Positions 10,494-53,552 of a DNA stretch of 64,000 bases are shown here, one piece after another. The notes under the pieces were generated by a model that worked only from the letters and a program-made list of their open reading frames with translations, did not search any database and was not told where the DNA came from. The DNA comes from an uncultured Ruminococcus sp. (GTDB lineage: Bacteria > Bacillota > Clostridia > Oscillospirales > Acutalibacteraceae): the NCBI GenBank assembly GCA_904393835.1, contig CAJFNC010000002.1, positions 62,001 to 126,000 of the forward strand, in the 5' to 3' direction. Made by a program: the position numbers and the translations under genes. The stretch's first letter is position 1, and every line of letters starts with the position of its first letter.

Positions 10494-10527
10494 CAATAAT
10501 CAATCCTTTCCCTTAATGAGAGCCGCA

Positions 10528-10550
10528 ACGGTTGCTGCCGTTAACCGTTA
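10528..10550. promoter_or_regulatory. Inverted repeat in the gltB leader
   Basis: AACGGTT-N9-AACCGTT (7-bp perfect arms) lies about 35 bases upstream of the gltB start. On the gltB transcript it forms a hairpin about 20 bases upstream of the ribosome site. It has no U-tract, so it is not a terminator. It could be an operator or a translational or mRNA-stability element; nothing in the sequence decides between these. Confidence 0.4.
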
Positions 10551-10712
10551 AATAATAATGTATATATAAAATACATATTGCATATAGTTATTAACATTAG
10601 CGTATTTTATAATACAAAACCCGACTCGGATTTAGGTTTATTTTTACGGCGTCGGTTTAAACGCCGCAGATGAATAAATTTGCGGTATATCTGCGATATA
10701 TACCAAATGTAA

Positions 10713-10838
10713 CAAACAGGATAATGTTCTCCGCCTTTACAGGCGGTGTCCATTATTAAAATTCAGCGGCGGGATACAATCCCTCACTGAATTTGCAGCG
10801 CAATGCGCTGCCGGCTTTGATAAAAGCAAAGCTTTGAA
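10713..10838 (-). repeat. Three-hairpin dispersed repeat, copy B (full length)
   Basis: Second full-length copy, inverted relative to copy A. It runs in the same sense as gltB and, if the promoter at 10920-10949 is right, is part of the gltB 5' UTR. Read on the minus strand it has the TTCAAAGCTTTGCTTTTATC head, hairpin 1 (GCAGCGCATTGCGCTGC), hairpin 2 (AATTCAGTG / CGCTGAATT around GGGAT-TGT-ATCCC) and hairpin 3 (ATAATG ... CCGCC-TGTAAA-GGCGG ... CATTAT). The inner part of hairpin 3 differs from copy A but still pairs. Confidence 0.85.
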
Positions 10839-10919
10839 TGTTACCGTAATCAACGCCGAATGCAAATAATTACAAAGCTCAAAAAATGACGCAAAACGGA
10901 CATAGTTACGTGTGATTGT

Positions 10920-11113: not shown

Positions 11114-11142
11114 TTGACAAATTAAAAAAATTAGAATATACT
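11114..11142 (+). promoter_or_regulatory. Promoter for glnN
   Basis: TTGACA (11114-11119), a 17-base spacer and TATACT (11137-11142). The predicted start near 11149 leaves a short leader of about 90 bases that consists almost entirely of the ANTAR-type hairpin and the terminator. Confidence 0.8.
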
Positions 11143-11155
11143 AACAGCAACGACA

Positions 11156-11171
11156 ACAGCAAGGGTGCTGT
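11156..11171 (+). promoter_or_regulatory. ANTAR-type antiterminator hairpin, glnN leader
   Basis: ACAGC-AAGGGT-GCTGT forms a 5-bp stem with a six-base loop that has A at position 1 and G at position 4, the recognition rule established for ANTAR-regulator RNA targets. Its 3' arm and loop are the 5' arm of the overlapping terminator (11161-11194), so the two structures exclude each other. An ANTAR protein is encoded 4.5 kb downstream. The usual second upstream hairpin (P1) is not visible here, because the transcript start leaves no room for it. Confidence 0.65.
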
Positions 11172-11200
11172 AGGCAATGGCTTACAGCGCCCTTTTGTCT
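11161..11200 (+). terminator. Leader terminator upstream of glnN
   Basis: AAGGGTGCTGTA pairs with TACAGCGCCCTT (12 bp, one G-U), followed by TTTTGTCTT, inside the 5' UTR about 40 bases before the glnN start. An intrinsic terminator in this position implies control by antitermination. Confidence 0.8.
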
Positions 11201-11238
11201 TAATAAAATCTTTAAAATTTGGATAGGAGAGAATCAAA

Positions 11239-13332
11239 ATGGCAAAAGTACCGGAATTGTTTGGCAGTTTGGTTTTTAATGACCAGAAAATGCAGGAAAG
11301 ACTTCCAAAGTCAACATACAAGGCTTTGAAGAAGACGATCCAGAACGGCGAACCGCTTGATTTGAGCGTTGCCAATGTTGTTGCGAACGCAATGAAAGAT
11401 TGGGCAGTTGAGATGGGGTGCACACACTACACCCACTGGTTCCAGCCTATGACAGGTATCACTGCCGAAAAGCATGACAGCTTTATCGCTCCAAACGGCG
11501 ACGGCAAAGTTATTATGGAGTTTTCGGGCAAAGAACTCGTAAAGGGCGAGCCTGACGCATCCTCATTCCCCAGCGGCGGTATCCGCGCTACATTTGAGGC
11601 AAGAGGTTACACAACATGGGATCCCACATCATATGCTTTTATTAAAGACGGCACACTTTACATCCCGACGGCATTCTGCTCATATACAGGTGAAATCCTC
11701 GACAAAAAGACTCCGTTGCTCCGTTCAATGGAAAGAATCAGTACGGAAGCTGTTAAGATTCTTCATTTGCTCGGCAAAACAGACGTAACAAGAGTTACCA
11801 CAACAGTAGGTCCCGAGCAGGAGTATTTCCTCATTGATAAGGATATGTATGACCAGAGAGAAGACCTTATCTACACAGGAAGAACACTTTTCGGCGCCAA
11901 AGCTCCCAAGGGTCAGGAACTTGATGACCATTATTTCGGCGCTATCAAAACAAGAGTTGCAGATTATATGAGAGACCTCGACGAAGAGCTTTGGAAGCTC
12001 GGCATCCTCGCTAAGACAAAGCACAATGAGGTTGCTCCTTCACAGCACGAACTCGCTCCTATTTTTTCAACAACAAATATTGCGACAGACCACAATGAGC
12101 TTACAATGGAAATTATGAAGAAAACAGCCGAGAAACACGGTTTGGTATGTCTCCTTCACGAAAAACCTTTTGCCGGTGTTAACGGTTCGGGTAAGCACAA
12201 TAACTGGTCGATTTCTACAAATACAGGCGAAAACCTCCTTGATCCCGGCAAGGAACCCGAAAAGAACACACAGTTCCTCCTTTTCCTTGCAGCTATTGTA
12301 AAGGCTGTTCACGAGTATCAGGATCTTCTCAGAATTTCAGTTGCTTCGGCAGGTAATGACCACCGTCTCGGCGCTAACGAAGCTCCGCCTGCAATTATTT
12401 CAATGTACCTTGGCGACGATCTCGGCGCTTTGGTTGATTCAATCATAAATGATAAAGAGTATGTGAGCAAAGGCAAAGTTAAGATGAAGACAGGTGTTGA
12501 GGTACTTCCTGATTTTATGAAGGATAACTCAGACAGAAACCGTACATCACCTTTTGCTTTCACAGGTAACAAGTTTGAGTTCAGAGCTCTCGGTTCTTCT
12601 CTCAACATTGCATGCCCCAACTACAACCTCAACACAATGGTTGCAGAAGAACTTTCAGAGTTCTATGAAGAGCTTAAAGACGCAACTGATATGGATTCTG
12701 CTGTTAAAGCTCTTATCAAGAAAACATTTACAGAGCATCAGGCAATTATCTTCAACGGCAACAACTATGCCGAAGAGTGGGTTGCAGAGGCAGAGAGAAG
12801 AGGACTTCTCAACCTCAAGTCACTCCCCGATGCGGTTGAACACTTCATTGACAAGAAGAATATTGACCTCTTTGTTAAGAACAAGATCTTTACAGAGGAA
12901 GAGGTTAAGGCAAGATATGAAATTGAGCTTGAAAGCTATTCAAAGCAGATTAACATTGAAGCTCTCACTATGATTGATATGGCTAAGAAGAATATCATTC
13001 CCGCTGTATCGGCATATGTAAGAGAGCTTACAGATACGGCTCTTGCCAAAAAATCACTTTCGGATGCTATTCCTACATCGGTTGAGGAAGATCTTGTAAT
13101 CAGTCTTTCCAATAAGCTTGTTTGCTTCAGTAAGAAAACAGCAGAACTTGAAGATGCTGTTATCAAAGCAGGCGATTATTCTGATGATAATCTAAAATCG
13201 GCTAAGTATTACAGAGAAGTTGTATTTGCTGCTATGCAGGAGCTCAGAGCAATCGGCGACTCTATGGAAACAGAAACCGCTTCCGAGTATTGGCCGTATC
13301 CTTCATACGGTGAAATGCTTTTCGGCGTATGA
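11239..13332 (+). CDS. glnN: Glutamine synthetase type III
   Basis: A 697-residue type III glutamine synthetase (GSIII), much longer than GSI (about 450) and typical of Bacteroidetes and ruminal clostridia. It makes glutamine from glutamate, ammonia and ATP. It shows the GSIII N-terminal signature region, the catalytic-core strands [10 protein letters not shown] and [15 protein letters not shown], and the glutamate/ammonia loop [14 protein letters not shown]. The gene is divergent from gltBD, so the GS-GOGAT pair shares one intergenic control region. Its leader carries an ANTAR-type hairpin/terminator. It is followed by amt after about 116 bases with a second such switch. Confidence 0.96.
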
Positions 13333-13362
13333 TTTACTAAAACCGAATATCATTAATTGATG

Positions 13363-13376
13363 ACACAATGGTGTGT
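13363..13376 (+). promoter_or_regulatory. ANTAR-type antiterminator hairpin, amt leader
   Basis: ACAC-AATGGT-GTGT is a small stem with a six-base loop again showing A1 and G4, closely matching the glnN loop (AAGGGT versus AATGGT). The terminator that follows begins within the loop (GGTGTGTA), so the same mutually exclusive arrangement as in the glnN leader is present. The stem is only 4 bp, so this copy is weaker evidence on its own. The repetition at the next nitrogen gene is the stronger argument. Confidence 0.55.
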
Positions 13377-13425
13377 AGCTAGCAGCGGAATACTGTCCGC
13401 TCGGGTTGCACACCGTTTTTATTAT
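13370..13425 (+). terminator. Leader terminator between glnN and amt
   Basis: GGTGTGTA pairs with TGCACACC, enclosing an inner AGCGGA-ATACTG-TCCGCT hairpin, followed by GTTTTTATT. It lies between the glnN stop and the amt start and should separate the two genes unless antiterminated. Confidence 0.75.
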
Positions 13426-13448
13426 AGCTATAAAAGGGGGAGAGAACT

Positions 13449-15149
13449 ATGGCTGATTTAATTTTCGGCACGAAAGGCGTTTGGTATCTGGTCGGCGCAA
13501 TGCTTGTATTCTTTATGCAGTGCGGCTTTGCAATGGTAGAAACAGGTTTTACCAGAGCTAAAAATGCTGGCAACATTATAATGAAGAACCTGATCGATTT
13601 CTGCATTGGTACGGTAGTATTCAGTTTGCTCGGCTTTGGTCTTATGATGTCCGAAAACTACATTGCCGGTTTCATCGGTTTACCTAATCTTCAGATGTTT
13701 ACCGATTGGGCAAACTTTGACTGGAACAGCTTTGTATTCCAGCTCGTATTCTGCGCAACCGCAGCAACAATTGTTTCGGGTTCTATGGCTGAAAGAACAA
13801 AGTTCGCCGCATACTGTGTTTACAGCGCTGTTATTTCACTTGTTGTTTACCCGATTGAAGCAGGCTGGTTATGGAACGAACAGGGTTGGCTTTGTCAGCT
13901 CGGAGCAATCGATTTTGCAGGTTCAATGGTAATTCATATGGTCGGCGGTATCTCGGCTATTATCGGCGCAATGATGCTCGGACCGCGTATAGGTAAATAC
14001 AGCAAAAACGGCAAGGTAAACGCTATTCCCGGTCACAGTATCACGCTCGGCGCTCTCGGTGTATTCATTCTCTGGTTCGGATGGTACGGCTTTAACGGCG
14101 CAGCGGCTGAAGACAGCTCTCGTCTCGGTCAGATTTTGCTCACAACAACTATCGCTCCTGCAGTTGCTACGGTTACAACAATGATTTTCACTTGGGTAAA
14201 GAACGGCAAACCCGATGTTTCAATGTGTCTTAACGGTTCGCTTGCAGGTCTTGTCGCAATAACTTCAGGCTGTGCGGACGTTGACGCTATCGGATCGGCA
14301 ATTATCGGTATAGTTGCAGGTATCTTGATTGTTGTATCGGTTGAATTTGTGGATATAAAGCTCAAGATAGACGACCCGGTAGGCGCGTTCTCGGTTCACG
14401 GTGTTAACGGTATATGGGGCGGTCTTGCAGTAGGTCTTTTCGCAACGGGCAACGGTCAGGACGGCGTAAGAGGTCTTTTCTACGGCGGCGGTTTTGAACA
14501 GCTCGGCAAGCAGGCTCTTGCAATTGTAACAATCGCAGCGTGGACAGTTGTTTGTATGACAATCGCGTTCTTTTTAATCAAGAAAACAATAGGTTTGCGT
14601 GTTTCCAAGGATGAGGAAATGAAGGGCCTCGACATTTGCGAGCATGGTCTTGTAAGCGCATACGCAGACTTTATGCCAATGGGTGTTGCAACGGCTTCGC
14701 TTGACGAAACAGTTGACGTTTCGGGCAGCGTACCGGTTACAGAGGCAGTTCCCGTTCAGCTTGCCGGAGATTACGATATTGATCCCAACAAGCCTAAAAT
14801 TACAAAAATTGATATTATTCTCAAACAGTCAAAGCTTGAAGCTCTTAAAGAAGAGATGGATAAGCTCGGCATTACAGGTATGACAGTTTCACAGGTGCTC
14901 GGCTGCGGTGCTCAGAAGGGTAAGCCGGAGTATTACAGAGGTGTTGCGATTGAGAGCAACCTCTTGCCTAAGATGAAAGTCGAAATTGTAGTGTGCAAGG
15001 TTCCTGTAAAGGCAGTTGTTGACGCTGCTGTTAAGGCGCTTTACACAGGCCATATCGGCGACGGTAAAATTTTCATATTCAACGTTGAAGATGTTGTAAA
15101 GGTAAGAACCGGTGAAACGGGTTACGATGCAATGCAGGACGTTGAGTAA
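13449..15149 (+). CDS. amt: Ammonium transporter fused to a PII (GlnK) domain
   Basis: A 566-residue fusion. Residues 1 to about 400 are an Amt/Rh ammonium channel with about eleven membrane helices and the twin pore histidines (VIHMVGGISA and SVHGVNGIWGG). After a linker of about 50 residues, residues about 450-566 form a complete PII signal protein (ITGMTVSQV, a T-loop, HIGDGKIFIF, VRTGE). PII normally plugs Amt from the cytoplasm in response to 2-oxoglutarate and ATP/ADP. Here it is tethered. The T-loop reads EYYRGVAIES, so the position of the tyrosine uridylylated in enterobacteria is isoleucine. It sits between glnN and the ANTAR gene, in a nitrogen locus. Confidence 0.95.
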   Translation: MADLIFGTKGVWYLVGAMLVFFMQCGFAMVETGFTRAKNAGNIIMKNLIDFCIGTVVFSLLGFGLMMSENYIAGFIGLPNLQMFTDWANFDWNSFVFQLVFCATAATIVSGSMAERTKFAAYCVYSAVISLVVYPIEAGWLWNEQGWLCQLGAIDFAGSMVIHMVGGISAIIGAMMLGPRIGKYSKNGKVNAIPGHSITLGALGVFILWFGWYGFNGAAAEDSSRLGQILLTTTIAPAVATVTTMIFTWVKNGKPDVSMCLNGSLAGLVAITSGCADVDAIGSAIIGIVAGILIVVSVEFVDIKLKIDDPVGAFSVHGVNGIWGGLAVGLFATGNGQDGVRGLFYGGGFEQLGKQALAIVTIAAWTVVCMTIAFFLIKKTIGLRVSKDEEMKGLDICEHGLVSAYADFMPMGVATASLDETVDVSGSVPVTEAVPVQLAGDYDIDPNKPKITKIDIILKQSKLEALKEEMDKLGITGMTVSQVLGCGAQKGKPEYYRGVAIESNLLPKMKVEIVVCKVPVKAVVDAAVKALYTGHIGDGKIFIFNVEDVVKVRTGETGYDAMQDVE

Positions 15150-15187: not shown

Positions 15188-15236
15188 TCGAAGGACCCCG
15201 TGCGGCAATGCTGTGCGGGGTCCTTCGATTTTGTTT
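15188..15236 (+). terminator. Terminator after amt
   Basis: TCGAAGGACCCCG pairs with CGGGGTCCTTCGA (13 bp) and is followed by TTTTGTTT. Confidence 0.85.
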
Positions 15237-15649
15237 ATATACTGCTGTTGCCTGATATCGCGGTAACGCCCACTTCGGAATAGTAATACGTCGGTTTGAA
15301 GATTGGTTACGGATAAATAGGAAAAACAATGATTTTACAAAAACAGCTGTAAAAAAACCGCTTTGGCTATTACGTGTTTGCTTGGAATCTAATCGCTTGA
15401 CATTACGGTTCAATAGGGGCTATGTTATGTTTCTGTCAGGTGTAATAATATTACATATTAATTTTTAAAATTCAAAAAATATTTTATGTAAAAATGTTTA
15501 TGTGTCGATAAAAAATTTAAAAACAGTAAAAACGGTCTGAAAACTTTAATTATTCGACACAAAAATAAAAAATCTTTCTTATAATTCTTTTATGTAAATT
15601 TGAATTATTGTTAATCTTGTAAAATAATATGATGAATGAAGTGTAAGCG
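15237..15649. other. Non-coding gap upstream of the ANTAR gene
   Basis: About 410 bases, AT-rich from 15430 onward, without a credible ORF. The one structured element I see is a widely spaced inverted repeat, TGTGTCGA (15501-15508) and TCGACACA (15554-15561). The second arm contains TTCGACA, the exact reverse complement of the Spo0A box core TGTCGAA. No clear -35/-10 pair for the ANTAR gene was found. Confidence 0.4.
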
Positions 15650-15655
15650 GTGGTG

Positions 15656-16231
15656 ATGTTCTTGAAAAAAGCTTTGTTGATTTCACATTCTCAGCAAAAT
15701 GCATACTCGCTTTCCGAACTGCTGAAAACTGAAGGCTATGAGTTTATTTCAACAACCAAGACATCCAAAGATGCAAAAAAGCTTGCAGAAAACGAGGAGT
15801 TTGATCTTATCTGTATAAATGCGCCTCTTATTGAGGAAACGGGAATCGAGCTTTCCGAGTATTTCGCAAAGAAAACACGCTCCTGCGTAGTTATTATTGT
15901 GCCGCAAAAAAACGCCGACAAGGTAAGCGATTTGCTTATGGAACACGGCGTGTTGGTTATTGCCAAGCCGATAAACAAGCATCTTTTTCACCATTATTTG
16001 CAGTTTACCGAATGTTTTAAAATGCGTATGCTGCGTGTGGAGGAGGAAAATCAAAAGCTGCGCCATATGGTTGAGGATATGAAGATTATCAACCGCGCCA
16101 AGTTTTTGCTTATTACTTGTCTTAATATGTCGGAGGAACAGGCGCACCGCTATTTGGAAAAACAGGCAATGGACTTGCGTATGAGCAAAGTCCAGGTTGC
16201 CATGCAGGTTATTAAAACATACGAGAACTGA
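15656..16231 (+). CDS. ANTAR-domain RNA-binding antitermination regulator with pseudo-receiver
   Basis: A regulator of about 191 residues. The C-terminus (about 145-190) is an ANTAR three-helix domain: NRAKFLLITCLNMSEEQAH then YLEKQAMDLRMSKVQVA matches the family pattern. ANTAR proteins bind small RNA hairpins and prevent termination. The N-terminus has a receiver-like fold but lacks the phosphorylation chemistry: the acidic pair is SHS in LLISHSQQN, and the phospho-Asp position in DLICINAPL is Asn. Only the conserved Lys (IAKPI) remains. It lies between amt and carA, and its likely targets are the glnN and amt leaders. The start is uncertain (GTG 15650, GTG 15653 or ATG 15656). Confidence 0.9.
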   Translation: MFLKKALLISHSQQNAYSLSELLKTEGYEFISTTKTSKDAKKLAENEEFDLICINAPLIEETGIELSEYFAKKTRSCVVIIVPQKNADKVSDLLMEHGVLVIAKPINKHLFHHYLQFTECFKMRMLRVEEENQKLRHMVEDMKIINRAKFLLITCLNMSEEQAHRYLEKQAMDLRMSKVQVAMQVIKTYEN

Positions 16232-53304: not shown

Positions 53305-53340
53305 TTATTAATTAACTTATTTGCACATTGTGTAAATATA

Positions 53341-53470
53341 TATCAAATTCGCTGTTCTAAAGACAGCAGGTGCAATAGCGTAAGGGTAGTTTTACCCGCC
53401 TGCCGAGGAAGATGCAAATTATACTTTGTATTTTTGCAGCCGTCCGCGGTATCGGACGGCTGTTTTTATG
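53341..53470 (+). ncRNA. Ribosomal protein L10 leader with terminator
   Basis: The rplA-rplJ gap contains the conserved L10-leader core (TCTAAAGACAGCAGGTGCAATAGC ... CCCGCCTGCCGAGGAAG), the autoregulatory mRNA site bound by L10 or the L10(L12)4 complex. It is followed by a strong terminator. The arrangement matches the known Gram-positive L10 leader class. Confidence 0.85.
53437..53468 (+). terminator. Attenuator within the L10 leader
   Basis: CAGCCGTCCG-cggtat-CGGACGGCTG followed by TTTTTAT, about 85 bases before rplJ. Confidence 0.9.
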
Positions 53471-53552
53471 AACTGCGTAATTGGCTTATGCCGACGCAAT
53501 ATGTACACTTGACGTGTGCAGTTGCCATAAGAATATTCGGAGGTGAATTTAA

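Follow-up and report, generated by a model that had tools for sequence, protein, structure and literature searches.

The glnN-amt-ANTAR locus

The window, i.e. the whole 64-kb stretch of DNA that was analyzed, displays the gene order glnN, amt-PII fusion, receiver-ANTAR gene on the plus strand. The glnN gene (positions 11239–13332) is predicted to encode a type III glutamine synthetase (Pfam domains GSIII_N, Gln-synt_C and Gln-synt_C-ter), and its closest named relatives are from Ruminococcus bromii strains and uncultured Ruminococcus. The amt gene (13449–15149) is predicted to encode an ammonium transporter with a fused C-terminal PII domain (Pfam Ammonium_transp, P-II). The third gene (15650–16231) encodes an ANTAR response-regulator-like protein (Pfam ANTAR, Response_reg), which is the single ANTAR protein found in the genome assembly (92% complete). 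The earlier note had placed this gene after amt; this holds for its position, but the gene is a separate transcription unit that lies behind a terminator at 15188–15228 and has its own promoter-like site at 15397–15426 (plus strand, 10 of 12 matches).

The next gene upstream of glnN is gltB, which is divergent, on the minus strand. Its leader (10497–10912, minus strand) is about 415 nt long and strongly structured (z = −5.7). It contains no hexaloop-hairpin/terminator switch and has no Rfam match above threshold, and its sequence is not conserved among the loci compared, with the exception of a brief stretch of similarity at the end nearest the promoter. An Rfam search of the window and of the glnN and amt leaders gave no family for either of the two switches described below. 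A ribosomal protein L10 leader is found at 53339–53475 (RF00557, 61.7 bits).

The glnN leader

The glnN promoter, TTGACA-17-TATACT, is at positions 11114–11142 of the plus strand (11 of 12 matches) and is kept directly 5′ of the hairpin in relatives. The hairpin, ACAGC-AAGGGT-GCTGT, spans 11156–11171, with arms at 11156–11160 and 11167–11171. The six-base loop, AAGGGT (11161–11166), has A at its first position (A1) and G at its fourth (G4) and is closed by a C-G pair. An intrinsic terminator with its T tract follows at 11161–11200 (stem 11161–11194, 15 pairs). It begins at loop base A1, and its 5′ arm consists of the hairpin's loop and 3′ arm. The two structures are mutually exclusive: the full leader folds as the terminator (−29.8 kcal/mol) and the truncated leader as the small hairpin, which has a stem strength of −5.4 kcal/mol. 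The −10 box ends at 11142, thus the transcript start is predicted near 11149, about 7 nt 5′ of the stem, which leaves room for one hairpin only.

The amt leader

The amt hairpin, ACAC-AATGGT-GTGT, is at 13363–13376 (plus strand; arms 13363–13366 and 13373–13376, loop AATGGT at 13367–13372). It also displays A1, G4 and a C-G closing pair, and is conserved in sister species as ACAC-AANGRY-GTGT. The hairpin alone is weak (−2.1 kcal/mol). An intrinsic terminator with its T tract (13367–13420, plus strand) overlaps the loop and 3′ arm; the full leader folds as this terminator (−30.3 kcal/mol) and the truncated leader folds as the small hairpin. No promoter-like site is found in the glnN-amt intergenic stretch, and the amt switch is therefore probably a second attenuator within the glnN transcript.

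The earlier note had described A1/G4 hexaloop hairpins in both leaders, each sharing its loop and 3′ arm with a terminator, and space for only one hairpin before glnN; the positions given above bear out all three points. A scan of the window for hexaloop hairpins of the form C-A..G..-G shows that the glnN and amt hairpins alone combine an AANGG loop with an overlapping terminator. The note had also pointed to a common loop AAnGGT, which is correct for the pair in the window but does not extend to the family, where the consensus is AANGRN and AAnGGC is the commonest loop.

Conservation of the hairpin in relatives

The glnN and amt leaders of 58 relatives were compared. Hairpins of the form C[AANGRN]G with a stem of at least 4 pairs number 66 in the 86 leaders from genomes with an ANTAR gene, where 0.58 are expected from dinucleotide shuffles, and none was found in the 20 leaders from genomes without one. 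Overlap of hairpin and terminator is seen in 67 of 80 named glnN relatives. Among 63 distinct hairpins both sides change in four of the five stem pairs, and the stem covariation score is 0.688, compared with 0.247 for shuffled sequences and at most 0.143 for slid partners. The earlier note was prepared to give up its proposal if the short stems failed to covary in relatives; the covariation is strong.

Membership of the covariation set required a C-G closing pair and a stem of 3 pairs or more, and for this reason a second search was made that left loop sequence and length free and looked for a small hairpin that lies behind a promoter and overlaps a terminator. It gave 105 switch-like leaders, and 104 of these have a six-base loop. 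A1 is present in 100 of the 104 hexaloops, G4 in 103 and the C-G closing pair in 100, thus the A1/G4 feature is conserved where the loop was not constrained. Loop position 3, by comparison, takes all four bases. This base also pairs in the terminator yet varies freely, and the terminator alone therefore fails to explain the conservation of A1 and G4.

An additional stem, in the window GACAA/TTGTC, between the RNA 5′ end and the sequence past the T tract was considered and rejected as a general feature. The mean is 3.7 as against 3.3 for shuffled sequences, and p is at or below 0.05 in 7 of 85 leaders.

Co-occurrence with ANTAR genes

Presence of the hairpin follows presence of an ANTAR gene. 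Counted per genome, a hairpin with a stem of at least 3 pairs is found in 36 of 37 relatives with ANTAR and in none of 16 without, although genomes of the same genus are not independent and relatedness inflates the p values of such counts. Since many of the genomes are congeneric, tests at the order and class levels are fairer. At the order level, with one genome per family, the hairpin is present in 12 of 13 genomes with ANTAR and in 0 of 7 without (p = 0.0001). At the class level the association is looser: in a separate sample the figures are 22 of 39 and 3 of 20, respectively (p = 0.0025). Some of the class-level exceptions may come from draft assemblies. G284 is without ANTAR, and its congener G306 has ANTAR and the same hairpin.

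The terminator displays a similar distribution, being present in 41 of 49 promoter-bearing glnN leaders from genomes with ANTAR and in 2 of 15 from genomes without. On the glnN tree three changes of ANTAR state suffice, and there is one informative pair. G015 and G033 nest in the ANTAR-bearing part of the tree, beside G007; ANTAR, hairpin and terminator are all absent from these two sister species and the promoter is kept. Such a joint loss is expected if a terminator without its antiterminator is costly. In two ANTAR-less drafts (L129 of G046 and L130 of G058) the glnN leader has kept its terminator and has no hexaloop hairpin. These are possibly decayed switches, or the ANTAR gene may be missing from the assembly.

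The ANTAR protein

The ANTAR domain (PF03861) of the protein encoded at 15650–16231 scores 56.3 bits, and the curated cut-off is 27.3. The protein is a pseudo-receiver in which the phospho-acceptor Asp is replaced by Asn, and most ANTAR proteins of the group likewise have Asn at this position (INAPL). EutV of Enterococcus faecalis, in contrast, is phosphorylated. A receiver without the acceptor Asp is unlikely to take its signal from a histidine kinase, and by analogy with AmiR-AmiC an input by protein or ligand contact would be more plausible.

The EutV RNA-contact residues Lys143, Lys149, Glu160, Met172 and Arg175 are present in the protein, with Arg in place of Lys147. The changes are Arg142 to Met, Tyr164 to His (as in AmiR), Arg168 to Glu, Asn173 to Asp and Arg177 to Ser. 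Across the group, Lys143 (or Arg), Lys149, Glu160 and Met172 are kept; most of the proteins are hydrophobic at position 142 and display His164, Glu168 and Ser177 or Thr177. The ANTAR proteins of the group may thus read RNA differently from EutV.

Comparison with known ANTAR systems

The switches have much in common with the E. faecalis eut leaders, i.e. the A1/G4 hexaloop, the C-G closing pair, the overlap of the 3′ arm with the terminator and a receiver-ANTAR protein. The C-G closing pair was also recovered by SELEX with NasR (PMC7496416). The eut leaders, however, need two hairpins, P1 and P2, with a linker of 5–12 nt, where the leaders described here have one hairpin at the RNA 5′ end. P1 and the correct linker are needed in vivo and in vitro (PMC3369931; PMC8934654), and deletion of P1 or lengthening of the linker abolishes EutV action (PMC3369931). 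In the structural model the dimer is recruited by P1, antitermination is the role of P2, and a single hexaloop is engaged at any one time (PMC8934654).

Antitermination of nitrogen genes is also a property of NasR-nasF in Klebsiella oxytoca and AmiR-amiE in Pseudomonas aeruginosa, and AmiR resembles the window protein in its pseudo-receiver and in the His at the Tyr164 position of EutV. Their RNAs have both P1 and P2, unlike the RNAs here, and NasR also has a nitrate-sensing input domain. Binding of NasR to a lone P2 hairpin is weak, about 12 uM (PMC7496416). Also comparable are clostridial NitR (glnA of C. acetobutylicum and C. saccharobutylicum) and the C. thermocellum ANTAR gene Clo1313_2030 (PMC4676874), which are likewise proposed to antiterminate ammonia-assimilation genes; the parts of these reports that are available describe no RNA target structure, in contrast to the present case.

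Walshe et al. (2022) redefined the minimal binding site as a single hexaloop, the unit that an ANTAR dimer binds, which agrees with a one-hairpin target, but lone hexaloops were expected only where the transcribing polymerase sets no time limit (PMC8934654). Here they are in terminator switches, and if these leaders work they would be a natural counter-example to that expectation. A search of the open-access literature found no description of a natural single-hairpin ANTAR terminator switch.

One hairpin or two

The leaders in the window have the A1/G4 hexaloop, C-G closing pair, short stem, terminator overlap and genomic ANTAR gene of the published motif, but neither has the two tandem hairpins with a linker of 5–12 nt (2–25 nt in actinobacteria). 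The window switches are therefore classed outside the published dual-hairpin motif. Among promoter-proximal hairpins in the set, 100 of 121 begin 7–16 nt after the −10 box, and in these there is thus no transcribed room for a P1 hairpin upstream. In a relaxed search of the 45 nt upstream, 1 of 70 sites had another A1/G4 hairpin, and 2.8 are expected from shuffling. The minimal single-hairpin form suggested by the earlier note recurs across the Clostridia.

It could be argued that these are classical dual-hairpin targets in which P1 either belongs to a transcript that starts farther upstream or has degenerated too far to be picked up by the scan, since the EutV, NasR and AmiR systems all require two hairpins, and true tandem hairpins were detected in a eut leader (L220) and in a glnN leader from another, distant family (L360). 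These two cases show that the scan is able to see dual hairpins. This reading is very unlikely, as in almost every leader the hairpin comes directly after the promoter, second hairpins are not in excess of chance, and readthrough from upstream is improbable at the glnN locus because gltB is divergent.

A possible tandem pair is present in one R. flavefaciens genome (L186). Three other candidates were rejected: in L159 and L160 the second hexaloops are the terminators' own apical loops, and in L042 the second hexaloop, 14 nt downstream, falls within the terminator of the first unit. In several leaders (L031, L114, L116, L118, L120, L284 and L319) two full single-hairpin-terminator units are found in tandem before glnN or purC. 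In some of these the units lie 65–80 nt apart, which is beyond the published dual-hairpin linker, and they may act as if they were two gates in series.

A dimer that spans two hairpins on separate RNAs or far apart on one RNA, e.g. those of glnN and amt, is highly improbable. EutV crystals do show one dimer in contact with the hexaloops of two RNA molecules (PMC8934654), and at this locus one predicted transcript carries both hairpins. However, many lone targets are at separate loci (glnN and amt of G022 are on different contigs; gdhA and glmS are further cases), and in the EutV study binding in trans was considered improbable within the time that transcription allows (PMC8934654). Least credible is a plain terminator whose 5′ flank pairs by chance, with control absent or exerted otherwise: a terminator itself constrains the 3′ arm and the loop by pairing AA with the U tract and GG with CC, but the 5′ arm, which is outside the terminator, covaries with the 3′ arm, G4 is nearly invariant beside a freely varying position 3, and the hairpin tracks the ANTAR gene.

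Other genes with the hairpin unit

The single-hairpin unit is found in relatives before nitrogen and glutamine genes other than glnN and amt, i.e. gdhA, glmS, purF, purC, gltS (a glutamate-synthase-like amidotransferase), a class I amidotransferase (GATase) gene and nitR, the ANTAR gene itself, and also before citrate synthase. The search pattern, promoter plus hairpin, also catches noise in relatives such as ribosome-binding sites, and the names gltS and purF rest partly on inspection of the protein sequence by eye.

In the genome that contains the window the pattern has two matches. The second precedes a gene for a circularly permuted ATP-grasp protein of 438 aa, with the leader AAAC-AAAGAC-GTTT and a terminator (L218; contig C10, 35152–35199, minus strand). 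The ANTAR protein encoded in the window may act on this leader too. In L287 (G035) and also in L293 (G012) the ANTAR gene is divergent from glnN and has a single hairpin-terminator leader of its own, which suggests positive autoregulation in these genomes.

Proposed mechanism and significance

Each of the two leaders is very probably a transcription-attenuation switch with an ANTAR antiterminator that lacks P1, a prediction of binding and readthrough drawn from the structures, their conservation and covariation, the co-occurrence with ANTAR genes and the missing second hairpin. By default the leader RNA would fold as the intrinsic terminator. When nitrogen is short, which we infer to be the signal, the ANTAR protein of 15650–16231 would bind and hold the single hexaloop hairpin, formed by the sequence just upstream together with the 5′ arm of the terminator. 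Formation of the terminator would then be blocked and glnN and amt expressed, i.e. control would be by activation. The hairpin would be stabilized to antiterminate as in EutV and NasR, but without a P1 to recruit the protein. The glnN hairpin would be the first structure made by RNA polymerase, about 7 nt into the transcript. This early position, and in glnN a stronger stem, may compensate for the missing P1; the P2 hairpin of the eut example L220 has −2.0 kcal/mol, thus the glnN stem is stronger but the amt hairpin is not.

The best reading of the sequence comparisons is that the P1-less ANTAR antiterminator is common in nitrogen genes of the Clostridia, as a variant of ANTAR antitermination outside the published dual-hairpin motif. 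It is likely that an entire clostridial nitrogen regulon (glnN, amt, gltS, gdhA, glmS, purF, purC and nitR) has this form as its standard. ANTAR antitermination would then generally have no need of a recruitment hairpin. Earlier searches for dual hairpins are likely to have overlooked the class, since they demanded two hairpins and a single-hairpin form would be missed by them.

According to the EutV work two hairpins are needed, and the role of P1 is to capture the protein ahead of terminator folding. A switch that is natural and conserved but has no P1 would make this recruitment model directly testable, the alternatives being tight binding to one hairpin, or a hairpin whose strength and location at the 5′ end of the RNA take the place of recruitment. 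The leaders may also offer a protein-gated switch of roughly 45 nt for engineering, and they hint at how Ruminococcus bromii and related bacteria of the gut might control ammonia assimilation.
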